Shown: positions 2,390 to 15,952 of the stretch, in pieces
Layout: the number at the start of each line of letters is the position of its first letter
Position numbering within the stretch: position 1 is the stretch's first letter
Virus record (IMG/VR): IMGVR_UViG_3300015024_000035
Span: 1 to 21,383 of that record
Source: a virus
Reading direction: 5' to 3' (one strand)
Length of the DNA: 21,383 bases
Translations under genes and position numbers: made by a program
Notes under the pieces: generated by a model
The model's input: only the letters and a program-made list of their open reading frames with translations
Databases searched by the model: none
Told to the model about the DNA's origin: nothing

Positions 2390-2671
2390 TTAATTTACTT
2401 TGAGTCTCATTGCTACTTCTACCTTTGTAGTCGGGTCTGCCTGGTTTCTGGCTTCCATTAATACTTGGCAATTAATTACTTGGACCATATTTATGTCAAA
2501 GGCACGTTCATTAAATATGCAACATGGTTCAACGGTCTTTCCTTCTAGTTTTAATAGTATGAATGTTTCCCAAGTGATTACCTGGTTGCCCTCGTATTCT
2601 GATATATAGTTATGTGCTAATTCTAGGTTATATAAATCGGTTACCGCTTCTAGTGAATGTGGTCTAATCAT
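2390..2671 (-). CDS. Hypothetical protein, 93 aa, last gene of the reverse-strand island
   Basis: Starts at ATG 2671 and reads left, one base after the stop of the upstream reverse gene (TAA-T-ATG), so translation is probably coupled. The product is 93 residues, with a helical N-terminus (SLEAVTDLYNLELAHNYI) and a Val/Leu-rich C-terminus. It has no motif I recognise. Its end converges on the small terminase with a 28-bp gap in which I see no clear terminator. A + strand open frame at 2400-2609 lies over it and is taken as a shadow, because the reverse genes form an evenly spaced run. Confidence 0.55.
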   Translation of the reverse strand: MIRPHSLEAVTDLYNLELAHNYISEYEGNQVITWETFILLKLEGKTVEPCCIFNERAFDINMVQVINCQVLMEARNQADPTTKVEVAMRLKVN

Positions 2672-2672
2672 A

Positions 2673-2855
2673 TTATTGTCCCATCGTTAGTTGACTATTA
2701 AAAATAATTCCCTGCCGTGGAACACTATTAACGCTATCTATTCCACCTACTACCTTGGTTAATAACGAATGTAATGCAACTACTAACACTATCATTCCAA
2801 GGATTATCAGAATTCCCTCAATAATATTAGTGAGGTAAGACTTATTGATTTTCAT
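2673..2855 (-). CDS. Small single-pass membrane protein, 60 aa
   Basis: ATG at 2855 overlaps the stop of the preceding reverse gene (ATGA). One strong hydrophobic segment (about residues 11-32, IEGILIILGMIVLVVALHSLL) follows a short basic N-terminus (MKINKSYL). The remaining 28 residues are polar. A small inner-membrane protein is well supported. The role could be holin-like, superinfection exclusion or host modification, and the sequence does not decide between them. It sits about 1.2 kb from the endolysin but on the opposite strand, which argues mildly against it being the main holin. Confidence 0.6.
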   Translation of the reverse strand: MKINKSYLTNIIEGILIILGMIVLVVALHSLLTKVVGGIDSVNSVPRQGIIFNSQLTMGQ

Positions 2856-3358
2856 TCTTTACCTTTCAGTACCGCTTTTACGGTATCCAATGTGCCCTGG
2901 GAAGCGGCGGACCGAGCGTCTCTTATTGCACTGCATAACCAACGCAGTTGATCTGGGTGATAGCCACAATCACAACCGCCTGTTTTCATTAATTCCCTAT
3001 GCAGTAACTCTAAAGAGAGCATTATCTCAATGGCTTCTTGGTTTACCTTGGGCTCAATGGGAACAAAAGATTCAACAGTTGCATTAGATAATTGAACGTC
3101 TAATACCTTTAATGCCATAGCTAATAAATGCTTATAATTCTTTAACTCTAAATACTTTCTATCAAACTCATCTTTTTTAACTTTTAATTCATTTAACTTA
3201 TTTGGTTTACGTGCGTAATAGAGTAATTGCTCAGAAGCCCACTTACTATTAATACTTGTTGATTCTTTTTCAATAGTCTTAATTTCAGTATTAACTTCAC
3301 TTAACTTATTAACAACCACTGATCTCTTGTATTCTAAACTTTCTTTGTCCTTGTCCAT
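2852..3358 (-). CDS. Coiled-coil protein with Cys-rich C-terminal segment, 168 aa
   Basis: The 168-residue product starts at ATG 3358 with a ribosome binding site (AGAGAGGA) on the reverse strand. The N-terminal two thirds is highly charged and helical (MDKDKESLEYKRSVVVNKL, then KLNELKVKKDEFDRKYLELK), with leucine/isoleucine spacing suggestive of coiled coil. Near the C-terminus, GGCDCGYHPDQLRWLC carries three Cys and one His and might bind metal. The binding site for ribosomes is partly inside a hairpin (3369-3404). It overlaps the downstream membrane-protein gene by four bases. The family is not recognised. Confidence 0.6.
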   Translation of the reverse strand: MDKDKESLEYKRSVVVNKLSEVNTEIKTIEKESTSINSKWASEQLLYYARKPNKLNELKVKKDEFDRKYLELKNYKHLLAMALKVLDVQLSNATVESFVPIEPKVNQEAIEIMLSLELLHRELMKTGGCDCGYHPDQLRWLCSAIRDARSAASQGTLDTVKAVLKGKE

Positions 3359-3368
3359 CTTGGTAATC

Positions 3369-3404
3369 CTCTCTAAGGGTAAGACGATTGCCTTACATAG
3401 AGAG
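3369..3404 (-). promoter_or_regulatory. Nested hairpin over the ribosome binding site of gene 3358
   Basis: CTCTCTA (3369-3375) pairs with TAGAGAG (3398-3404), and inside it GTAAG (3379-3383) pairs with CTTAC (3392-3396) around an 8-base loop. In the reverse-strand RNA the 3' arm of the outer stem overlaps the AGAGAGG ribosome binding sequence of the gene starting at 3358. It could limit translation or mark an RNA-processing site. It is not followed by a T run, so it is not an intrinsic terminator. Confidence 0.4.
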
Positions 3405-3420
3405 ATATCGGCGTCAATTA

Positions 3421-3924
3421 TTAATTCATAGCAACGTGAATTTCTGCTGCTTTCCTGGAATACCCGGCGTCCTTAGCGTCCCTCATAACTTGGCGAACCT
3501 TGGATTCCCATTCACCAATCAATATCCCATTATCAATATCATGTTTGCCAAGTTTCCCATGTTTATCAACATAATAGTTAAAAACTTCAGGGTATTCATC
3601 TAATACTCTCTTGTAATTAATTATAAAATTCCTATCATTTTCAATTATTACTTTGTCAGTTTTAGCCATCTCCATATGCTCATTACACCATTCAATATCT
3701 TTATTACTAGTCAATAATTCTTCTGCAACTAAAGAAGGTAATAAATCAATAGCAAATTCCAATATGGTGTCATACTCTTCAAAATCAATCTCACCAGAAG
3801 AATATTCCTTTAAGTTTTCTCTAAAGATGGCTTCCCATTTTTGTTTAATCTCCAAGCAAAGTTTGTTGTTGCGATATAACTCGAGGCAGGTTTCCAGGAC
3901 TTTTTCATCAGGTGTTTGCATCAT
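3421..3924 (-). CDS. Hypothetical acidic helical protein, 166-167 aa, first gene of the reverse-strand island
   Basis: Two adjacent ATGs (3924 and 3921) could initiate. A GATAAT element on the reverse strand (3928-3933) lies six bases before the second one and there is no ribosome binding site, so a leaderless start at 3921 is plausible. The product is acidic and predominantly helical (VLETCLELYRNNKLCLEIKQ), lacks membrane segments, and ends with a basic stretch (VRQVMRDAKDAGYSRKAAEI). No family is recognised. It begins a four-gene leftward run that is divergent from the endolysin operon, as expected for a separately controlled accessory set. Confidence 0.6.
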   Translation of the reverse strand: MMQTPDEKVLETCLELYRNNKLCLEIKQKWEAIFRENLKEYSSGEIDFEEYDTILEFAIDLLPSLVAEELLTSNKDIEWCNEHMEMAKTDKVIIENDRNFIINYKRVLDEYPEVFNYYVDKHGKLGKHDIDNGILIGEWESKVRQVMRDAKDAGYSRKAAEIHVAMN

Positions 3925-4054: not shown

Positions 4055-4957
4055 GTGTCGTATCCGTTTATTCAAGCTAAGAATTACACGCCAGGTCGCG
4101 GTGGTAAGACCGTCCGAATGATTGTTCTCCATACTATGGAGACCCCCGAGACTGGTGGACGGGCTGAACAAGTTGCTAAATGGTTCGCCGGGGAAACCGC
4201 TCCACAAGCAAGTGCACATTACTGTGTAGATAACACAGCCATATGGCAAAATGTTAAAGACACTGATACTGCCTGGGCTGTCGCCGTAGAAGACTACAAC
4301 CAAGAATCGATCTCACTCGAGCTCGCTGGCCAGGCATCACAAACACCCGCACAATGGGCGGATACTTATTCGCGAGGAGAATTAGCGGGAGCAGAGAAAC
4401 TCTCGGCTGAACTTTCCGTTGAACACGGTATTCCGCCAATTCACTTAACTGACAAGCAAATCTTGGACGGGGTAACCAAGGGTTTCTGTTATCACGCTGA
4501 TATCTCCAGAGCCAAGGCAATAGCTGGTGGTCACACGGATCCAGGCGTAAACTTTCCACTATATAATTTTCTTGCTAGTGTAGCCGGGCTAAACACCCCT
4601 AAATTGGGCGGACGTTCGGTTTTGGCGGGTTCTCCTGTTATCCCTGGCGTAATCACTTCAACAGAAGTAAAAAAGTCTTCTAATCCAATCGTCCAACCAA
4701 AATTACAAGTTATTAAAGTAGCTGATGTTCAACCTGGTAAATCTGGCAATGAAGTAAAACTTGTCCAAGAAGCATTAACAAAAGTTGGATGTAATCCCGG
4801 TTTACCAGATGGCATCTTTGGAAACAAGACAGTCAACGCTTATGGAACTTGGCAAAGAGAATGCGGTTATCGCGGTGCGAATGCTAACGGTGCACCTGGA
4901 TTTACGACTCTCGCATTACTTGGCAAGAAAAGTGACTTATTTGAAGTAGCCGTTTAA
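4055..4957 (+). CDS. Endolysin: N-acetylmuramoyl-L-alanine amidase (amidase_2 type) with peptidoglycan-binding domain
   Basis: GTG at 4055 has AGGAG at 4044-4048. Residues about 18-170 form an amidase_2/PGRP-like catalytic domain that cleaves the bond between muramic acid and the peptide stem. Candidate zinc ligands are His26 (IVLHTME) and His160 (GGHTDPG), and His55 (SAHYCVD) also sits in a conserved position. A linker (about 180-225) leads to a C-terminal PG_binding_1-like domain (about 229-292: VKLVQEALTKVG, DGIFGNKTVNAYGTWQ). The 300-residue length suits a phage lysin. There is no signal peptide, so it needs a holin. It heads a run of genes that overlap by a few bases down to 6279 and is preceded by a putative late promoter and a leader hairpin. 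Clear assignment by domain motifs. Confidence 0.9.
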   Translation: MSYPFIQAKNYTPGRGGKTVRMIVLHTMETPETGGRAEQVAKWFAGETAPQASAHYCVDNTAIWQNVKDTDTAWAVAVEDYNQESISLELAGQASQTPAQWADTYSRGELAGAEKLSAELSVEHGIPPIHLTDKQILDGVTKGFCYHADISRAKAIAGGHTDPGVNFPLYNFLASVAGLNTPKLGGRSVLAGSPVIPGVITSTEVKKSSNPIVQPKLQVIKVADVQPGKSGNEVKLVQEALTKVGCNPGLPDGIFGNKTVNAYGTWQRECGYRGANANGAPGFTTLALLGKKSDLFEVAV

Positions 4958-5025
4958 TGACAGAAACATATGCTCCAAAGCCTGGAGACCTTGGAATCGT
5001 TAGAACTAAAGGATTAGCCGCGTGA
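4957..5025 (+). pseudogene. Truncated copy of the YiiX-like gene at 5755 (22 codons)
   Basis: ATG at 4957 overlaps the endolysin stop (TAATG). The frame reads MTETYAPKPGDLGIVRTKGL, then AA and stop. The protein starts like the gene at 5755 (PKPGDLGIVSTNGLAA), and the DNA at 4978-5022 matches 5785-5829 at 40 of 45 positions. The copy ends exactly where the next gene begins (GTGA overlap at 5022-5025), so it looks like the 5' remnant of a duplicated gene. It may still serve to couple translation of the next gene. Confidence 0.7.
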
Positions 5026-5690
5026 TAACAATCCTAGTAACCACAGATTGCCTACCAGTAGCCGATCTCAATAACTGTGTTGAAGCTCTTAACCGCACTC
5101 TGCTCAAATGGTGTCCAAAGTGGAACATCCAAGCCACCGCGACAACTGACCCTAAAGTTAAAGCCCAGATGGCTATTAGAGTGACCGACAACAATCGGCA
5201 CACAGGCGCACTCGGCTATCACACGGTCGAGAAGGGTGTACCGACCTCGTACTGCTCACCTAGGGCCGTCGGGCGCACCTATGGACATTATTCCCCACCT
5301 CTCTACACCCGTGAGGTGAAGGTACTGGGTAGGGTCCTTAGACCTGCTCGACTAGTACACCCTGCTATCTACACGCAGGGACTCGTCACGGTAATCATCC
5401 ATGAGGCCTTAGAGATGTTGGCAGATGCGAACATTGACAAGGTCGCCAAAGCAACCGATGGGAAGAATTGGTTGGTTGAAGTTTGCGACCACGTTTCAGG
5501 AATCTATAGCACCGAAAATGTGGCTGGTAACATCTGCGTTATTCCAGATGCCACATTCCCTAGTTATTACCAATCCAATGGGGTAGCACCCTTTGACTTA
5601 TTTAATTCAGATCACAGCGCCTTCGATAAGTCAGCCCCTAAGTTTTACGCCTTCTACCAGGACACTAATGGAAAGTGGGTGGCGGTATGA
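5022..5690 (+). CDS. Putative phage metalloprotein with HExxE motif, 222 aa
   Basis: GTG at 5022 overlaps the stop of the truncated copy upstream (GTGA). The 222-residue product contains VIIHEALEMLAD, an HExxE motif (His127, Glu128, Glu131), followed by LVEVCDHVSG (Glu153, Asp156). This resembles a group of phage and bacterial hypothetical proteins with a SHEvlEmlvDP-like motif that may be metal-dependent peptidases. I recall the motif but not a formal family name. No signal peptide or membrane segment is visible. Its GC-rich codons near the start (CTCGACTAGTACACC) differ in feel from the AT-rich neighbours. It lies between the endolysin and a peptidase-fold gene, so a role in cell-wall or surface breakdown, or in the virion, is possible; this is inference. 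Confidence 0.65.
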   Translation: MITILVTTDCLPVADLNNCVEALNRTLLKWCPKWNIQATATTDPKVKAQMAIRVTDNNRHTGALGYHTVEKGVPTSYCSPRAVGRTYGHYSPPLYTREVKVLGRVLRPARLVHPAIYTQGLVTVIIHEALEMLADANIDKVAKATDGKNWLVEVCDHVSGIYSTENVAGNICVIPDATFPSYYQSNGVAPFDLFNSDHSAFDKSAPKFYAFYQDTNGKWVAV

Positions 5691-5755
5691 GTGAGGACAA
5701 GGTAACTCTCACCAAACTTGGTACTGAGTCTGGTCTATTTAAGGCAATCCTCTAA
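5687..5755 (+). CDS. Micro-ORF between coupled genes, 22 aa
   Basis: ATG at 5687 overlaps the upstream stop (ATGA), and its TAA at 5753-5755 overlaps the next ATG (TAATG). The 22-residue product, beginning MSEDKVTLTKLG, has no recognisable domain. The perfect fit at both ends suggests it is translated, if only to pass ribosomes to the next gene. It could also be a remnant of a longer gene, like the truncated copy at 4957. Confidence 0.45.
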   Translation: MSEDKVTLTKLGTESGLFKAIL

Positions 5756-6279
5756 TGACGCAACCAATCATTGCTTATGTTCCGAAGCCTGGTGATCTGG
5801 GAATCGTTAGCACTAATGGATTAGCCGCGAGACTGATTCAAGTTGGCACGGTATCCAGATGGAACCATGTCTTTATCTATATTGGTCCAACTCTCGTGGA
5901 CGGCGTTTGGTATGACTTAGTTGAAGCTACTCCTAGTGGGGTTAAGTATGGCAACACAAGTGAATATTCAAACATCGTTTATAACAAGCACCAAGTTTTC
6001 AGCAACGAAGAGGTAGACCGTGCTTTCATCGTTGCCTATGCTCGCGGTCTTGTTGATAAGCCTTACAACTGGGTGAATATTTTTAGAATCGCTTTCCGTA
6101 TCTTGGGTCTAAAGATATTTGCTAATACGAAACTTATGAAGCATCTCGCGTCTAAGGACGGTTATATCTGTTCTGAGGCCGGTGAAGAGGCTTATGAGAA
6201 GTCGGGTAATCCTTTGGTTCTCAAGGATGCTGGGGAAACATCGCCTGGTGATCTTCTTGAAGCGATTGTTTATCAATAA
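5755..6279 (+). CDS. YiiX-like permuted NlpC/P60-fold protein, 174 aa
   Basis: ATG at 5755 overlaps the micro-ORF stop. The order of motifs fits the circularly permuted NlpC/P60 papain-like fold of YiiX/YebB-type proteins: GDLG (13-16), catalytic-type His38 in WNHVFIYIG, an acidic residue in LVEATPSG (Glu57), and Cys139 in YICSEAGEEAY near the C-terminus. Such enzymes act on amide or ester bonds in cell-wall peptides or lipids. The 174-residue length is usual. No signal peptide is seen. It ends the coupled run that starts with the endolysin, so an accessory role in lysis is likely by context. The 5' end of a second copy is left at 4957-5025. Confidence 0.7.
   Translation: MTQPIIAYVPKPGDLGIVSTNGLAARLIQVGTVSRWNHVFIYIGPTLVDGVWYDLVEATPSGVKYGNTSEYSNIVYNKHQVFSNEEVDRAFIVAYARGLVDKPYNWVNIFRIAFRILGLKIFANTKLMKHLASKDGYICSEAGEEAYEKSGNPLVLKDAGETSPGDLLEAIVYQ
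5785..5829 (+). repeat. Direct repeat partner of 4978-5022 (40 of 45 identical)
   Basis: This 45-bp segment, which encodes KPGDLGIV...GLAA, matches 4978-5022 at 40 positions by eye. The repeats bracket the HExxE gene and the micro-ORF. They mark a duplication of the 5' end of the YiiX-like gene and could have been the boundary for gain of the intervening genes. Confidence 0.65.
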
Positions 6280-6351
6280 TTTATATTTTTTATAAGTGCC
6301 GATAAATAAGTTGTAGGGCAAATAGTTCTACACCTTAGAGAGGGAAAGATT

Positions 6352-6690
6352 ATGTTTAAAAGAATAAATGTTTTATGTAGTAAGGGTAACCAAGGGTTTA
6401 CTATTATTGAGACAACTGCTGTTGCACTATTAGTTTCAATACTTTCCGTTGGCGGTGCTACTGCTTTTGCATCATATGCAGACCAGTTAGACAAGGTTGT
6501 TCAGACTCCCCCTGCTGAGCTTGCTTGTATCTCGGACGTGCTGGCTTCTTCAGGGTTAACGCAGTTGCAGGTTACCGAAATAATTAAGGCAGACCCTAAT
6601 TCTGAGATTGCTGTATCGCTTTCTGCGTGTGTTGCTGTAGATGCAAGTAGTGAGCCCCAGTGGTTGCAGGATGACCTTTCTAAGATTTAA
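6352..6690 (+). CDS. Type IV prepilin-like protein, 112 aa
   Basis: ATG at 6352 follows GAGAGGGA. The N-terminus is a class III (prepilin) leader: basic residues and Gly (KGNQG), then FTIIE and a hydrophobic helix (TTAVALLVSILSVGGATAFA). Prepilin peptidase would cut between Gly15 and Phe16, leaving Phe+1 and Glu+5 (Glu20), the two signature residues of pilins and pseudopilins. The mature 97-residue protein has two Cys (59, 93) that could form a C-terminal loop. It follows the lysis genes on the same strand. Possible roles are interference with host pili, a pseudopilin decoy or superinfection exclusion. A simple membrane protein such as a holin that happens to resemble a pilin is the alternative. 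Confidence 0.65.
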   Translation: MFKRINVLCSKGNQGFTIIETTAVALLVSILSVGGATAFASYADQLDKVVQTPPAELACISDVLASSGLTQLQVTEIIKADPNSEIAVSLSACVAVDASSEPQWLQDDLSKI

Positions 6691-6736
6691 AAGTTTTAGC
6701 AGAAACTTGGATTATCACGCCGATAGTTCAAGGTGA

Positions 6737-6829
6737 GGTTGTGAACCTGGTCTTAATGGCCGCCCTCTCTCGGCAAGCAAGATGAGTGACTGTTCCTTTC
6801 CGGTCCCCTTGCACACCAGGTTCACAACC
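6737..6829 (+). ncRNA. Candidate structured RNA: 15-bp perfect stem with 63-nt loop
   Basis: GGTTGTGAACCTGGT (6737-6751) is perfectly complementary to ACCAGGTTCACAACC (6815-6829). The 63-base interior can form smaller helices, for instance GCAAG (6777-6781) with CTTGC (6808-6812). A TTTTT run follows at 6834-6838, so the whole could be a small RNA ending in a weak terminator, a large terminator hairpin, or an inverted repeat with a DNA role. No gene of meaningful length covers it on the + strand. It is not a tRNA: there is no 7-bp acceptor stem with the usual arms. Confidence 0.45.
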
Positions 6830-6838
6830 GTAGTTTTT

Positions 6839-6904: not shown

Positions 6905-7174
6905 ATGAGCGTAAGAACTATAAGAAACAGGAGTCCTATAAACGTGTTTAACGATGATGATTATGAAGATGATTCTATTTGCACTCCTGAACACGAAGCG
7001 GTTTTAGGATTACTTGAAGAAGCCATATATCAAGCAACTTTAGTCCAGGACTGTAATGAAGAATGTTCCTATATTCACGCCGTATTATCCGCGGCTTACC
7101 TTGCTTGCATAGGTGTTGATGATGAAGAAATTTATAGAGACTTTGGATTACCTTGGATTAGCGAGCGGCCATAA
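6905..7174 (+). CDS. Hypothetical acidic protein upstream of the large terminase, 89 aa
   Basis: The 89-residue product is strongly acidic (FNDDDYEDDSI, GVDDEEIYRDFG), with a helical centre (HEAVLGLLEEAIYQATL) and four Cys. No family is recognised. It has no ribosome binding site, and an AT-rich -10-like element sits five bases before the ATG, so it may be leaderless. Its TAA overlaps the large terminase ATG (TAATG), so terminase translation probably depends on it. A small acidic protein that helps DNA packaging would fit the position, but this is inference. Confidence 0.6.
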   Translation: MSVRTIRNRSPINVFNDDDYEDDSICTPEHEAVLGLLEEAIYQATLVQDCNEECSYIHAVLSAAYLACIGVDDEEIYRDFGLPWISERP

Positions 7175-8628
7175 TGGAATTACCAAAGAATCCTTCTGAT
7201 AGGCAACGCTTAATAAAATTATTAGAAACCCGTAAGGAAGCTTGTGCTTGGCGTTGCACAAATCGTGCTTGCGACGGTAAACCACACGATGGCTATGACT
7301 ACAAGCATGCTCGAGGAAAGCAACAACCACCCTGGGGTCAAGTAATTACTATTCCCGCTACAAAAAAGAAACCAGAGCGCCAGGTTGCTGTTAGGCGTTG
7401 GTATGCCCGAGGTGGACGTGGAAGTGGAAAGACTTGGGCTGGTGCTAATGCTCTCGCTGAAATCATCCTTTGGTATGGCGGAACAGATGAAGCTGGTGAA
7501 CAGCGATCGTATGCAGTAGTTGGTCCAAACTTTAGTCACGTTCGAAGGACTTGTTTAGAGAGCGGTAAGAGCGGACTCATTAAAGCTCTAGGTGGATTAA
7601 AAGGTCCGCATATTCTCAAATGGAATCGTAATGATGGCGAACTGCATCTTAAAAATGGTGCCATCGTCGTTGTATCTGGCGTTGAAGATGGTGCTAAACG
7701 TATTGAAGGTGGCAACTTCTGTGCTGTCTGGTGTGATGAGGTTGGATTATGGAATCTGCATAGGTGGAAGAAAGCTTGGCAAGAGGCTATCCAGGGAGCC
7801 GTTCGTATGTCTCCGTCTATATTTATTTTTACTGGGACACCAAAACAAGGGCATCCATTTGTAAAGATGCTGACTTCTGATCCTCGAACAGTTGAAGTTG
7901 TTATGCCTACCTCTGAGAACGAGGACAATCTTGATGCAACTTATGTAGAAGAAATAAAAGACATGTTCGAGGGCACGCAGTTATATCGCCAAGAATATAT
8001 GGGCGAGATTCTTCAGGATGTTGCTGGTGCCCTATGGAATTCCGCAATGATTGAGACAACGCGACATGAGTTTCCTCCTGCTGTTGATGAGATGCTCAAC
8101 ATTGTTGTCGGTTGGGATCCTGCCGTCACTTCTACTGATAAAAGCGATGAACATGGAATTATTGTCGCTGCAAGGTTAAAAGGCGAACCCTCTCACTTTG
8201 TAATCCTTGATGACCGCTCTGGTGTCTATTCTCCAGATGGTGCTGTCTCTATGGTGCTTGATGCTTATGAGACTTGGAGTGCTGATTCAATAGTTGTTGA
8301 AGTTAACCAGGGTGGCGATTTTGCTGAGAGTTTATTGAAGACCCGGACGCTATCACGCACTATAGATATTAATAAGGTTCGCGCTTTACGCGGTAAGCGT
8401 GTTCGTGCTGAGCCTACTGCCGCATTATCTGAACAAGGTCGCCTTCACATGGTTGGTTACTTCGTTCAACTAGAAGAGCAGATGACTACTTGGACTCCAG
8501 ATAAACCTGGTTCACCAGATCGTCTAGATGCGATGGTCTGGGCAATAACCGCACTTCTAGAAAAAAGTACTAATACAGGTGCCTACTACTACGGCCGCCG
8601 AAACCAACGCCCCGCAGGAGGCCACTGA
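7174..8628 (+). CDS. terL: Terminase large subunit
   Basis: The 484-residue product is a full-length large terminase, the ATP-driven motor and nuclease that fills the prohead. It has Walker A GGRGSGKT (80-87), Walker B CAVWCDE (183-189, Asp188-Glu189), the coupling motif FTGTP (219-223), and a C-terminal RNase H-like nuclease with Asp315 (GWDPAV), Glu376 (VVEVNQGG) and Asp449/Asp452 (SPDRLD). A Cys-rich N-terminus (CAWRCTNRACDG, then PHDGYDYKHAR) resembles actinophage terminases. The start is set by the TAATG overlap with the upstream gene; there is only a weak ribosome binding site. A copy of the recurrent motif is embedded in codons around residues 390-397. The small subunit lies 4.8 kb upstream. 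Confidence 0.93.
   Translation: MELPKNPSDRQRLIKLLETRKEACAWRCTNRACDGKPHDGYDYKHARGKQQPPWGQVITIPATKKKPERQVAVRRWYARGGRGSGKTWAGANALAEIILWYGGTDEAGEQRSYAVVGPNFSHVRRTCLESGKSGLIKALGGLKGPHILKWNRNDGELHLKNGAIVVVSGVEDGAKRIEGGNFCAVWCDEVGLWNLHRWKKAWQEAIQGAVRMSPSIFIFTGTPKQGHPFVKMLTSDPRTVEVVMPTSENEDNLDATYVEEIKDMFEGTQLYRQEYMGEILQDVAGALWNSAMIETTRHEFPPAVDEMLNIVVGWDPAVTSTDKSDEHGIIVAARLKGEPSHFVILDDRSGVYSPDGAVSMVLDAYETWSADSIVVEVNQGGDFAESLLKTRTLSRTIDINKVRALRGKRVRAEPTAALSEQGRLHMVGYFVQLEEQMTTWTPDKPGSPDRLDAMVWAITALLEKSTNTGAYYYGRRNQRPAGGH
8343..8365 (+). promoter_or_regulatory. Recurrent CCGGAC...CACTATAG motif, copy 3, inside the large terminase gene
   Basis: CCGGACGCTATCACGCACTA followed by TAG. It differs from copies 4 and 5 at one position (T for C, position 9) although it lies in coding sequence (TRTLSRTID). 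The portal start is 265 bases downstream of the predicted initiation point, so it could drive the portal, minor head protein and protease genes. Confidence 0.6.
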
Positions 8629-8629
8629 T

Positions 8630-10114
8630 ATGGGATTGATTAATAGAAAATCCAAGAAGGCCATAGAAAAACGCGATATATTATTAACAGGGCAATCCGG
8701 CAGTGGAATGGTCTCAAGCCCATATGGCAACTTCTCTTTTACATCGGGTGCCTGGGGATCCAACAGCATCTCAACTGAACAAGAGATGGCAAGATTACGA
8801 CCTAGCCTAGATAGAGCACTCGCAGTAAGTGCTATGGCGTCAAGATGTATAGACTTAAAAGTAAATGCTGCCGCTTCAAGAAAACTACAAGTAATAAATG
8901 AAGCTGGCGAAAAAGTTCCCCACTTCTTAGAAGACTTATTTAATAAATCACCTAATGCCTCACAATCCGCAATGCTATTTAGGTCTTCCTTCTGGCAACG
9001 CTTAAATATGACTGGTCAAGCATTCATTATTATGGATCGTGGTCTAAATAGAATTGATGACCCAACCAGTGCATGGCTTCATTATGGTTCAGTTCAAATT
9101 ATCCTTAATGACCCAACTCCTAAAACACCACATGGAACCGTTAAAGCTTTCAAAATTGCCTATGGAAATGACTTTGCTATTCTCGCACCGAGTGAAGTCT
9201 TATGGATTAGATATCCAGACCCAGTAAATCCATGGGGAGCCCGTGCTCCAATTGCTGCAGCATTAGATGCTATTGGGTTAACGAAAGCTGGACGTGAATG
9301 GCAAGCAGGGCAACTCGCTAACGGTGGAAACCCTTCAGGTATCGTCTATGTCGGTCAACCTTCAAGTGATGAAGAATATTATGGAATCCGAGAAGAAATA
9401 GAAGCAGCATTAACTGGTCCATCTAGTGCTGGTCGCATAGCTGTAGTAGCCGGCCCAATGAAGCCAGAATTTATGAAAACTTCATTTAGTCCTAAGGAAT
9501 TTGAATACCTGAACTCCCTGGGAGTCCAAGGCGATGATATTGCTCTTGCTTTAGGTGTTCCTCTTGACCTTGTTGGTGGACAACGTACCTATCAAAATGC
9601 CGATGCTGCTCGCACAGAGTTTTGGGAAACCACGGTTAGCCCAGAGTTAGCAATGGTTGCCAGTGAAATTGACCGTCAGATGCTCGCTGGTCAACCTTTA
9701 TACGTTGAATTTGATTTATCTGATGTCTCCGCTTTACAAGAAGCTCAAGATAGTCTTTCTACTAGAGTAAATACAACAGTAGTTAATGACATAATTACTA
9801 TTGATGAGGCACGTGCTGCTCTTGGTCAAGACGTTCTTCCAGAATATGGACACTTAACTCTTACTGCGTATAGAGCACTATTTGCTCCTAAGCCAGTAAC
9901 TACTGAAGGTAGAAGCACTCCAGTTGTAGTCAATGTTCGCAACGAACGGGAATCCGTGTCCACAAATGTAGACACTAATACTGAACCGTCCAATCAAGAG
10001 ATTAATACAATTGAAGAGCGAATTGAAATTCCTGTTCGTCAGGTTCGCGGTGTAACACAAGCTCACGCTCATAAGACTTTGGACCGCTTGGAATCCGGGA
10101 TGACAGAGCAGTAA
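8630..10114 (+). CDS. Portal protein (HK97-type)
   Basis: I chose ATG 8630 because AGGAGG (8616-8621) lies eight bases upstream. An in-frame ATG at 8579 would overlap the terminase and lacks such a site. The 494-residue product matches portal proteins: SLDRALAVSAMASRCIDLKV near the N-terminus, GREWQAGQLANGGNPSGIVY in the centre, and VPLDLVGGQRTYQNADAART, the hinge-proximal segment of HK97-type portals. Portals form the 12-mer ring at the head vertex through which DNA passes. The C-terminal 100 residues are low-complexity and charged. The last 40 bases overlap an open frame in the -1 frame that continues into the minor head protein without a start codon. Confidence 0.88.
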   Translation: MGLINRKSKKAIEKRDILLTGQSGSGMVSSPYGNFSFTSGAWGSNSISTEQEMARLRPSLDRALAVSAMASRCIDLKVNAAASRKLQVINEAGEKVPHFLEDLFNKSPNASQSAMLFRSSFWQRLNMTGQAFIIMDRGLNRIDDPTSAWLHYGSVQIILNDPTPKTPHGTVKAFKIAYGNDFAILAPSEVLWIRYPDPVNPWGARAPIAAALDAIGLTKAGREWQAGQLANGGNPSGIVYVGQPSSDEEYYGIREEIEAALTGPSSAGRIAVVAGPMKPEFMKTSFSPKEFEYLNSLGVQGDDIALALGVPLDLVGGQRTYQNADAARTEFWETTVSPELAMVASEIDRQMLAGQPLYVEFDLSDVSALQEAQDSLSTRVNTTVVNDIITIDEARAALGQDVLPEYGHLTLTAYRALFAPKPVTTEGRSTPVVVNVRNERESVSTNVDTNTEPSNQEINTIEERIEIPVRQVRGVTQAHAHKTLDRLESGMTEQ

Positions 10115-11533: not shown

Positions 11534-11574
11534 CCAACCTAGGGCTGCATCGGGGTCAAAGCACTCTGGGTTGG
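11534..11574 (+). terminator. 11-bp imperfect stem-loop after the protease gene
   Basis: CCAACCTAGGG (11534-11544) pairs with CTCTGGGTTGG (11564-11574) with two G-U pairs and a 19-base loop. It lies between the protease stop and the holin start, where transcript levels may change. There is no T run after it, so it could also be an attenuator or an RNA-processing site. Confidence 0.4.
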
Positions 11575-11609
11575 TTACCAACTTCCCCTATAAGAATAAG
11601 GATATAAAA

Positions 11610-12011
11610 ATGAAGACAAGCACAAAGTTACTTTTAGGTTCATGGGTGCGAACATTTGTGGCATCTGTATCAGCATCTTTAACTGTAGTTGGTAAAGCAC
11701 CTTGGACTTTCAATACTAGTCATTTACTGGCTATTTTAGTAAGTGCTGGAGCTGCTACTGGTGCCGCTATATATAATTACTTTAGTCCTAGAGACGCACG
11801 CTTTGGCAAGACTATTGTATTTGTAGCCAAGGCAGCCCTGTTAGCATCTAAAGAAACTAATGTTTCTGCTCCAGTTAAAGCAGACGCCGAGGCAGTTGGT
11901 AATTATCTAGAAAGCCTAGCTTCAGAAAATACTCCAGTTGCACCCGTTGAAACTTCATTTCCTGCAAAATCTTTAGAAGCCAGACAAGTAGTAATTACTC
12001 CGGGTGCATAA
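11610..12011 (+). CDS. Putative holin (r1t-like, actinophage type), 133 aa
   Basis: ATG at 11610 has AAGGA at about 11597-11602; an ATG at 11571 in the same frame lies in the hairpin and is less likely. The product has two hydrophobic segments (about 8-27, LGSWVRTFVASVSASLTVV, and about 37-56, LLAILVSAGAATGAAIYNYF) followed by SPRDARFGK. This layout (WVRTF, GA-rich second segment, then NYFxPxxxRFG) resembles r1t-type holins of actinophages. The C-terminal half is polar and Pro/Ala-rich. Holins open the membrane for the endolysin. Its place between protease and capsid, 5.6 kb from the endolysin, is unusual, so a different membrane role remains possible. Confidence 0.6.
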   Translation: MKTSTKLLLGSWVRTFVASVSASLTVVGKAPWTFNTSHLLAILVSAGAATGAAIYNYFSPRDARFGKTIVFVAKAALLASKETNVSAPVKADAEAVGNYLESLASENTPVAPVETSFPAKSLEARQVVITPGA

Positions 12012-12013
12012 AA

Positions 12014-12427
12014 ATGTATATGGCATACACACACCTACTACTTACACTAAATGACACGAACTTAATTACTAACTCGGTCTGGGCTGTAATTGATTCCTTT
12101 GCCACCTTGATAATCGGTATCTTTGGTGTTTACAAGATTAGATCTTATCAAAAGAATAAAGCATCATGTAAAGATGAATTAATAGAAAATCAACAGCATG
12201 AGATTGCCTTACATACCGCTAATGACGCTGTTAAGACTCAACTTGAAGCTTTCGAGGATAAGTTTGATGAAAAAATTGATGCAATAAATAAAGTCTTAGT
12301 AAAGATTAACTATGCAATATTTAACTCAGGCAAAACTGGTCTAGTAAATAAAGTGGATGCAATGCTTGAGAATCAAACGGAAATGATCGTTGCTATTGAG
12401 GTATTAAAAGCTAAATCGCAAAAATAA
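12014..12427 (+). CDS. Membrane-anchored coiled-coil protein, 137 aa (possible second holin or antiholin)
   Basis: The ATG at 12014 has no good ribosome binding site; ATG 12020 is an in-frame alternative. The protein has one membrane segment (about residues 22-41, SVWAVIDSFATLIIGIFGVY) followed by a basic stretch (KIRSYQKNK) and a charged helical region (DAVKTQLEAFEDKFDEKIDA) that looks like a coiled coil. Paired membrane proteins beside a holin are common in actinophage lysis cassettes, where the second may be an antiholin. That role here is inferred from position and topology. It lies directly upstream of putative promoter copy 4 and the capsid gene. Confidence 0.55.
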   Translation: MYMAYTHLLLTLNDTNLITNSVWAVIDSFATLIIGIFGVYKIRSYQKNKASCKDELIENQQHEIALHTANDAVKTQLEAFEDKFDEKIDAINKVLVKINYAIFNSGKTGLVNKVDAMLENQTEMIVAIEVLKAKSQK

Positions 12428-12554: not shown

Positions 12555-13619
12555 ATGAATCTTAAAGACATGAAGGCTCAAGCCCGCAATCACCCTGCAG
12601 CTACAAGCCCAGAAACAGCAACCGACGAGCAGGTTGCAGAACTTCGTACGCTCGTATCAGAAATCGAAAAGCGCAATGATGCTGCTGCTGTATCTGCAGC
12701 TGCTGTTGCAGTTGGTGCAGAAGATGTAGTAGTCGTTGAAGCTCAAGAAGGCACAGTAACTCGTGCTAAGTCTTGGGGCACAGCTGCTAATGCTGAGTTT
12801 TCTGCTTTCAAGAGCGGACGCTCAAACAGTATTGTAGTTCCACTACAAACTCGCGATGCTCTTCTTACCTCAGGTGCTTTCATTAATCCAACAATTGATG
12901 AAATCGCCCCACTTCCAGTTCCAACTCCATTACTTGGAATTGTTTCTGTTGAAACCGTTAGCACTCCAGCAGTAGAAGTTGTTCACACAACTATTACCTA
13001 CAATGCTGATGATGTTGCTGAAGGTGCTGTAAAGCCAGAGTCAACAGTTTCATACACAGCTTCAACGCTGGTGGTTCCAACGGTTGCCCACTGGACCAAG
13101 GCTTCCCGCCAAATCCTCGCTGATAAGGCAAGACTTGATGGATTCCTTCGCGACAGACTCCAAGTTGGTCTTAACAAGAAGGTTGATACAGCCGTCTACA
13201 CTGCAATTTTGGCTGGTACATATACAGCTAAAACTGCTGCATCACTTCTTGCTGCTATCCGTTTAGCTAAGGCTGAGCTAGATGCTCTTGGTTTCGAAGC
13301 CAACGCAATGGTTATCAACCCAACAGATTTCGCTAACCTCGATATCGCTATCCTTAATGGAACACTTCGTGGTCCAGTCCTAAACGGTTCATACTGGGGT
13401 CTTACTCCAATTGCTTCCGCTAAGGTTGCAGCAGGAACTGTTTATATCGGTGACTTCAAGACCGCAGTAACAACCTACATGCGTGCAGATGCAGAGATTT
13501 ATATTTCTGACGCTGACGGAGATAACTTCACAAAGAACCTCGTAACTTACTTAGCTGAGACTCGTTCCTTGACTGTCGTTACAACTCCTCAAGCAATCGT
13601 CACTGCACACGTCGCTTAA
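12555..13619 (+). CDS. Major capsid protein, HK97 fold
   Basis: ATG 12555 follows CAGGAGA. The 354-residue product has the HK97-type layout: a short N-terminal scaffold-like segment (about 1-75, rich in Ala and Val), then VPLQTRDALLTSGAF, PLLGIVSVETVSTPAVEVVH, and the E-loop/P-domain region (ASTLVVPTVAHWTKASRQIL, DKARLDGFLRDRLQVGLNK). The C-terminal region carries FEANAMVINPTDFANLDIAI and ends VTTPQAIVTAHVA. The capsid shell is built from hundreds of copies. The gene has its own putative promoter (12449) and is followed by a GC-rich hairpin (13637-13674), consistent with high expression. Confidence 0.92.
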   Translation: MNLKDMKAQARNHPAATSPETATDEQVAELRTLVSEIEKRNDAAAVSAAAVAVGAEDVVVVEAQEGTVTRAKSWGTAANAEFSAFKSGRSNSIVVPLQTRDALLTSGAFINPTIDEIAPLPVPTPLLGIVSVETVSTPAVEVVHTTITYNADDVAEGAVKPESTVSYTASTLVVPTVAHWTKASRQILADKARLDGFLRDRLQVGLNKKVDTAVYTAILAGTYTAKTAASLLAAIRLAKAELDALGFEANAMVINPTDFANLDIAILNGTLRGPVLNGSYWGLTPIASAKVAAGTVYIGDFKTAVTTYMRADAEIYISDADGDNFTKNLVTYLAETRSLTVVTTPQAIVTAHVA

Positions 13620-14685: not shown

Positions 14686-15128
14686 TGGCTACATATGGTC
14701 CAAAAAATGATTATGAAGTTTTTGATATTAAACCTTTTATTGATGCTGCTACTAGTTATCTTAAAAAATTGGACGAGAAAGCTTTTGATGAAGTTGTAAA
14801 ACTTGGCTATGAAATTCGTAATGAAGCAATAACTGCCACACCAGTTAAGACTGGAGTTCTTAGAGCTGGTTGGAAGGTTCGCCAGGGGCGCAATCAATAT
14901 GCCATATGGATAGAGGTATCAAACACTGTTCCATATGCGACTGATATTGAATACGGAACTAAGCCTCACTTAATTATCGCTAAAAATGCAAAAGTACTTG
15001 CTAATAAGCGAACAGGTCAATTCTTTGGAAAGACAGTTCATCATCCTGGAACTAGACCTTATCCAATGCTTCGTCCGGCAATAACGCATCAAGTTCCTAA
15101 GTTCCTAAAAAGATTGGCTGGTATGTAA
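14685..15128 (+). CDS. HK97 gp10-like head-tail/tail protein, 147 aa
   Basis: ATG 14685 overlaps the previous stop (TAATG); a TTG at 14673 is an unlikely extension. The 147-residue product matches HK97 gp10-like proteins: EIRNEAITATPVKTGVLRAG near residue 50, then VSNTVPYATDIEYGTKPHLI and RPYPMLRPAI near the C-terminus. In most phages these sit between closure protein and tail terminator and function at the head-tail junction or early tail assembly. The stop overlaps the tail terminator ATG, so the four connector genes are translationally coupled. Confidence 0.8.
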   Translation: MATYGPKNDYEVFDIKPFIDAATSYLKKLDEKAFDEVVKLGYEIRNEAITATPVKTGVLRAGWKVRQGRNQYAIWIEVSNTVPYATDIEYGTKPHLIIAKNAKVLANKRTGQFFGKTVHHPGTRPYPMLRPAITHQVPKFLKRLAGM

Positions 15129-15952
15129 TGTTTACGGTTACTTTTGATGCTAATGGTGGAACTGGTTCAGCTTCTCCACAAAGTTCCCCGTTTCCCAATG
15201 GTCTTACTCCTAATACCGCAACTCGTAATGGATATTTATTTACCGGCTGGAATACGGTAATCGATGGTTCCGGTGCCGGATATTACGATGGCGCTACATA
15301 TGATTTTTTTCATGATATTACGCTTTATGCTCAATGGACTTACACAATTACTTTTGATGCTAATGGTGGAACTGGAACAATGGCTCCAGAAACTGGAGGT
15401 TGGCCTTACAACTTAAATGCTAATACTTTTATAAATACTGGATATACGTTTGCTGGTTGGAATACTTCAGTAAATGGTTCTGGAACTTCGCATAGCGATA
15501 ATGAATTTATTTATTTAGCAAGCGATATAACTCTATATGCTCAGTGGAGCTTACCTCCTAAGCCAGTAACTATTGCGGGTGCTCTAAAGGTTGTTATCGC
15601 TATTGTTTTACCTGACCTCCATGTTTACCGTCTTGAGGCACCTTCACTTACTGAGACTCCAGTCGTCGTTATTTATGACGGATTATCTGTTAGTTCAAGA
15701 ACAGATATTATTTCTGATTTAATTCTTACAGAGACTGTTCAAGTTGACCTCTATACACAAACTGGTTCTGACTTCTCGCTTCCAGATGCCGTTCACAAAG
15801 CTCTCCATAGGTGTGAATTAGCCCTTGCTACTGGTCAGGTGTTTTTATGCCTAGTTCAACAGAGAACGGCGAACCCTACCCCTGGAGACCCAAATGACCA
15901 AGGTATAACTCGCACTACTTACACGCTCACAATCACTAGAAAACCCGCTTAA
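15128..15952 (+). CDS. Tail terminator protein with two N-terminal InlB/Flg_new-type repeats, 274 aa
   Basis: ATG 15128 overlaps the upstream stop. Residues 1-70 and 71-140 are two copies of a Listeria-Bacteroides repeat (InlB B-repeat): V/ITFDANGGTG at the start, GYxFxGWNT in the middle, DITLYAQW at the end. Residues about 146-274 (IAGALKVVIAIVLPDLHVYR, then VDLYTQTGSDFSLPDAVHKA, ending TYTLTITRKPA) resemble siphovirus tail terminators, which cap the tail tube and bind the head. The gene lies exactly where a tail terminator belongs. Repeats of this type are normally found in surface proteins, so here they would decorate the virion neck. The two repeats share a 28-bp identical DNA segment, which suggests a recent duplication. 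Confidence 0.78.
   Translation: MFTVTFDANGGTGSASPQSSPFPNGLTPNTATRNGYLFTGWNTVIDGSGAGYYDGATYDFFHDITLYAQWTYTITFDANGGTGTMAPETGGWPYNLNANTFINTGYTFAGWNTSVNGSGTSHSDNEFIYLASDITLYAQWSLPPKPVTIAGALKVVIAIVLPDLHVYRLEAPSLTETPVVVIYDGLSVSSRTDIISDLILTETVQVDLYTQTGSDFSLPDAVHKALHRCELALATGQVFLCLVQQRTANPTPGDPNDQGITRTTYTLTITRKPA
15138..15165 (+). repeat. 28-bp direct repeat, copy 1 (partner at 15348-15375)
   Basis: The 28 bases encode TFDANGGTG and recur without change at 15348-15375, 210 bp (70 codons) downstream. They mark the start of each InlB-type domain. Identity at the DNA level, including third positions, points to recent duplication or gene conversion. Confidence 0.85.
15348..15375 (+). repeat. 28-bp direct repeat, copy 2
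   Basis: Exact copy of 15138-15165. It begins the second InlB-type domain of the tail terminator gene. Confidence 0.85.

Follow-up and report, generated by a model that had tools for sequence, protein, structure and literature searches.

The window, by which we mean the whole stretch of 21,383 nucleotides analysed here (IMG/VR record IMGVR_UViG_3300015024_000035), carries on its plus strand an endolysin gene followed, in order, by genes for a 222-aa protein, a permuted papain-like protein and a prepilin-like protein, a structured RNA element, a gene for an 89-aa protein, and the terminase large subunit gene. The endolysin (4055-4957) contains Amidase_2 and PG_binding_1 domains, the 222-aa protein (5022-5690) has no assigned function, and the papain-like protein (5755-6279), which is of the YaeF/YiiX type, matches phrog_1128 as well as PRK11479 (E = 5e-11, below the equivalog cut-off). 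Next to the latter gene, a confirmed open reading frame at 6352-6690 begins with ATG, encodes the 112-aa prepilin-like protein, and is preceded by a Shine-Dalgarno-like GAGAGGG at 6338-6344. The RNA element (130 nt, 6704-6833) lies directly downstream, between the stop codon of this frame and the gene for the 89-aa protein (6905-7174), and the terminase large subunit occupies 7174-8628. The terminase small subunit gene is found further upstream, at 1831-2361 of the same strand.

A related phage, IMGVR_UViG_3300002092_000022 (hereafter L002), was reached through its terminase, which is 65% identical to that of the window. It carries a homologue of the prepilin-like gene at the matching position, flanked by the papain-like gene and the packaging genes. 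The 222-aa gene, which is common to other phages, is missing from L002, the papain-like protein is 28% and the 89-aa protein 35% identical, and the prepilin-like gene and the RNA element (9494-9618, plus strand) are both retained. Moreover, the prepilin-like gene of L002 starts before the papain-like gene has ended (9148 versus 9173), so that the two genes are probably co-expressed. Gene order and this overlap together suggest a single late operon, in which the prepilin-like gene would be expressed along with the lysis enzymes. A preliminary description of the window had placed the gene beside the lysis genes, which is true of the amidase and papain-like genes but not of the holin-like genes, which lie elsewhere, at 11571-12427.

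L002 probably represents a complete temperate genome of about 32.8-32.9 kb, as its contig carries a direct terminal repeat of 101 bp, a tyrosine integrase with a likely attachment site, and a sigma factor. The attachment site, probably attP, is a partial tRNA-Arg-like sequence, GCTCGTAGCTCAACGGATAGAGC, identified as a tRNA by eye and located just downstream of the integrase (12600-12662 of locus L111); it could serve to identify the host. Among isolates, the relatives of the terminase are led by Arthrobacter phages and those of the portal by Streptomyces phages, and all endolysin matches (367 of 367) are from phages of actinobacteria. An actinobacterial host is indicated by these relatives, and the window probably derives from a temperate tailed phage of an actinobacterium. 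No prepilin peptidase was detected in the analysed sequence of either phage. Of the control genomes, that of Corynebacterium glutamicum does contain a member of this family, so that the enzyme occurs in actinobacteria.

Several other features of the region can be recorded here. The small subunits of the two terminases are far more alike (92.6% identity; 5795-6352 in L002) than the large subunits, and about 5 kb, including the lysis/prepilin block, separate the two genes. The 222-aa protein bears a conserved HE..EMLAD motif, possibly protease-like, and accompanies permuted papain-like genes in otherwise different phages (L024, 9291-9962; L029, 9989-10618); it has no INPHARED match. Four small open reading frames on the minus strand (2390-3924), located after the terminase small subunit gene and before the endolysin gene, gave no family matches and are partly conserved in L002 (25-35%). 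A tail-region protein at 15128-15952 starts with two FDANGGTG...YAQW-type repeats outside the part aligned with L002, a likely insertion; we take these repeats to belong to the InlB B-repeat/Flg_new type found on bacterial surfaces.

The prepilin-type signal and its conservation

The encoded protein starts with MFKRINVLCSKGNQG, a short charged leader of 15 residues whose last residue is the expected Gly (Ala being the alternative at -1), and continues with FTIIETTAVALLVSILSVGGATAFASYADQLDK. Such an N-terminus is of class III, the type IV prepilin kind: the putative cleavage site lies between G15 and F16, the mature protein would begin with FTIIE, placing a glutamate at +5 (E20), and uncharged residues follow for 23 positions in the window protein and 19 in its L002 homologue, where at least 14 after the cleavage site are expected. 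The membrane helix spans about residues 21-43, and the outer domain contains two cysteines, C59 and C93. The leader KGNQG, the FTIIE with its hydrophobic helix, and Glu+5 are thus present at 6352-6690 exactly as first described.

Profile searches point in the same direction. With TIGR02532, the NCBIfam prepilin model of the GFxxxE domain (cut-off 16.3 bits), the L002 homologue scored 19.0 bits, above the cut-off, and the window copy 15.6 bits, just under it. With Pfam N_methyl (PF07963), the scores were 14.7 bits (E = 0.023) for the window and 17.7 bits (E = 0.0026) for L002, neither of which reaches the curated cut-off (21.2 bits). When a profile built from the two sequences was compared with the PDB, the top matches were pilins, namely geopilin (E = 0.005), PilA (E = 0.0098) and MshA (E = 0.045), with PpdD matched weakly (E = 0.25). 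The best of these, the geopilin domain 1 protein (9egp), has a short pilin helix, and the match is limited to the N-terminal half. Similarity to PHROG 3433, a phage "pilin" family of the moron category, concerns the first 38 residues, that is, the signal region only, and is not significant (E = 0.16).

A signal of this kind might arise by chance in an unrelated membrane protein. A regular-expression scan for the motif in six frames of about 1.08 Mb of phage loci related by terminase or lysis genes recovered the window gene, the L002 homologue, and a single 51-aa chance reading frame. The motif is thus nearly absent from the related-phage background, which argues that its occurrence here is more than chance. 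For PilFind, a rule-based predictor, a false-positive rate of about 2.7e-4 per protein has been published (PMC3244431).

The L002 homologue has 113 amino acids and is 44% identical to the window protein. Gly-1, Phe+1, Thr+2, Glu+5 and the two cysteines are shared, as is a C-terminal SSEPxWLQxDLSKI. The preliminary description had named homologues without Gly-1 and Glu+5 as grounds against a prepilin, and this sole homologue has both. The leader and cleavage region is more conserved (12 of 20 residues identical) than the membrane helix (5 of 25; one-sided Fisher p = 0.007), as would be expected of a site that has to be recognised by a peptidase. By the NG86 method, dN is 0.60 and dS 2.87, giving a dN/dS of about 0.2, which is approximate as dS is near saturation; the gene is, judging from this two-sequence comparison, under purifying selection. 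Motif, profiles, synteny and selection together support the earlier suggestion that the phage carries a type IV prepilin-like protein.

The gene appears to be rare. A scan of viral contigs with the window protein gave no relative, and the two-sequence profile returned L002 alone. In INPHARED, tblastn had no match to the window copy, and the matches to the L002 homologue were at E = 3 only. No further homologue was seen in more than 80 terminase-related phage loci, the motif being absent from four phages that share the 222-aa and papain-like genes (L024, L026, L028 and L029) and not found in the next nearest terminase relative, L030. Prepilin and endolysin scans of genome contigs gave no match; they relied on short peptide patterns, by which distant relatives can be missed. 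Within the collections searched, the prepilin-like gene would therefore seem to be an uncommon accessory, confined to a single narrow group of phages.

Resemblance to type IV prepilins and minor pilins (TIGR02532, PF07963) extends from the charged leader, Gly-1, Phe+1, Glu+5 and hydrophobic helix to an outer C-terminal domain with two cysteines. Unlike those proteins, however, this one is encoded by a phage, has no pilus genes around it, and has a mature part without a recognisable pilin head, either in the profile comparison with the PDB or in structure models. Where pilins typically have a long N-terminal helix and a beta-sheet head, AlphaFold2 models of the two proteins show a helical mature domain with no strands, at pLDDT of only 53 and 57, so that the all-helical fold is a low-confidence prediction. 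A Foldseek search with the low-quality model gave nothing usable. In sum, this is a phage-borne prepilin-like protein whose mature part does not resemble known pilins.

A structured RNA downstream of the gene

The 130-nt element comprises a hairpin (6706-6716/6722-6732), a closing stem of 15 bp (6737-6751/6815-6829) and two inner hairpins (6759-6762/6771-6774, with loop CCCUCUCU at 6763-6770, and 6777-6781/6808-6812). A run of 33 nt (6746-6778), CCTGGTCTTAATGGCCGCCCTCTCTCGGCAAGC, is identical in the window and L002. Comparison of the two phages shows all 35 base pairs preserved, six of them by changes on both sides and two by one-sided G-U wobbles. In slid controls, at most 46% of cells were kept and no double change occurred; since the structure was derived from the same two sequences, this control is biased in the structure's favor. 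In a shuffle control, the figure was 7 of 500. Relative to shuffled sequences, the fold z-scores were -5.5 and -5.4 on the plus strand and -2.8 and -2.4 on the minus strand, which favors an RNA of the sense strand over a mere DNA palindrome.

At the nucleotide level, no long DNA is better conserved in the two phages than the element (79% identity over 153 aligned bases) and the terminase small subunit gene (83%); apart from two short ones, the remaining long aligned stretches are 67-72% identical. Rfam 15 gave no match at gathering score, with two meaningless matches at E > 1, and the element was absent from the other loci searched, an exact-pattern scan of viral contigs returning L002 only. 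Candidate roles are regulation at the boundary between lysis/pilin and packaging genes, a processed small RNA, and a packaging site, the last suggested by the co-conservation of the terminase small subunit. A pairing of the loop CCCUCUCU with the Shine-Dalgarno region of the prepilin-like gene, AGAGAGGG (6337-6344), was rejected, since the ribosome-binding site of L002, CAGGGAGG, is an imperfect partner and GAGAGGG occurs at about chance frequency. The GCCGA of the hairpin loop could pair with UCGGC of an inner hairpin as a putative pseudoknot or switch. The element is well supported as a structured element, and stands as an independent finding of possibly greater novelty than the prepilin-like protein.

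Possible roles of the prepilin-like protein

Our preferred reading, which we hold tentatively, is that the protein is a pilin mimic processed by the host and that, as a false or minor subunit, it obstructs or modifies the type IV or competence pili of the host. Beyond the presence and conservation of the signal, we infer every step. The protein would be produced late, alongside the endolysin and the papain-like enzyme; its charged leader would place it in the membrane with the C-terminus outside; the host's own prepilin peptidase would cut between G15 and F16; and the cleaved protein would enter the host pool of pilin subunits. As its outer domain is short, apparently helical and unlike a normal pilin head, it would most likely serve as a false or minor subunit. 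Blocked or altered pili might then lower the pilus-dependent adsorption of rival phages or the uptake of DNA. The preliminary description had already raised competition within the pilus machinery, a change in adsorption or uptake, and the shutting out of other phages, all of which are plausible as hypotheses.

This interpretation draws on the prepilin profiles, the pilin matches in the PDB, the syntenic homologue with its Gly-1, Phe+1 and Glu+5, the conservation of leader and cleavage region, the excess of dS over dN, and the low background of the motif. The probable co-expression with the papain-like gene, the retention of the gene while its neighbours change, and the temperate nature of L002 are likewise in keeping with it. 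There is precedent for phage proteins that target pili: PfsE of Pf4 binds PilC (PMC8764522) and other phage proteins inhibit PilB (PMC11436027), while an altered ratio of minor to major pilins changes pilus dynamics (PMC13249403). Interference with type IV pili by small phage proteins was shown in those cases and is proposed in ours; however, those proteins bind PilC or PilB, and none is described as a prepilin mimic (PMC8764522, PMC11436027). No account of a phage-encoded prepilin mimic turned up in the open-access literature searched. Against the mimic reading, the window copy falls just under both family cut-offs, two sequences only are available, the mature domain matches no pilin head and is modelled, at low confidence, as all-helical, and the late, lysis-associated location suits a lysis role equally well.

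Such a lysis role is the main rival, and one we consider rather unlikely. The protein would be a small membrane protein with a single span and an extracytoplasmic domain that regulates or assists the endolysin and the papain-like enzyme, its leader being a mere anchor. The position of the gene directly after the genes of these enzymes, its overlap with the latter in L002, and the small size and single membrane span of the product speak for this role. Nonetheless, the residues of the cleavage site are conserved beyond what an anchor needs, the holin-like genes are elsewhere, and other phages possess the same papain-like and 222-aa genes without the prepilin-like gene. Alternatively, the complete class III signal, the two conserved outer cysteines and the temperate relative could be those of a true pilin subunit, a cargo gene rather than an inhibitor, whose product joins host pili and so alters adhesion, uptake or the phage receptor of the infected cell or lysogen. 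This we judge unlikely, given the lack of a recognisable pilin head and the location in a late/lysis block instead of a separate cassette expressed by the prophage. That the motif is a coincidence, carried by an unrelated phage membrane protein that escapes prepilin peptidases altogether and has nothing to do with pili, would fit the small sample (n = 2) and the window scores under curated cut-offs, but is very unlikely in view of the agreement among several profile sets, the low motif background, the published PilFind rate (PMC3244431) and the site-specific conservation.

A broader proposal, in which the pilin mimic and the RNA form a two-part unit of a small temperate phage family, the mimic being processed by the host peptidase and poisoning pili and the downstream structured RNA controlling expression of the unit or of the packaging genes after it, seems to us quite doubtful. 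As to pilin mimicry itself, the described phage attacks on type IV pili that we found act on motor or platform proteins. If the mimic reading is true, entry through the host prepilin peptidase would be a distinct strategy, that of subunit mimicry, and pili would matter in the competition of phages among actinobacteria.
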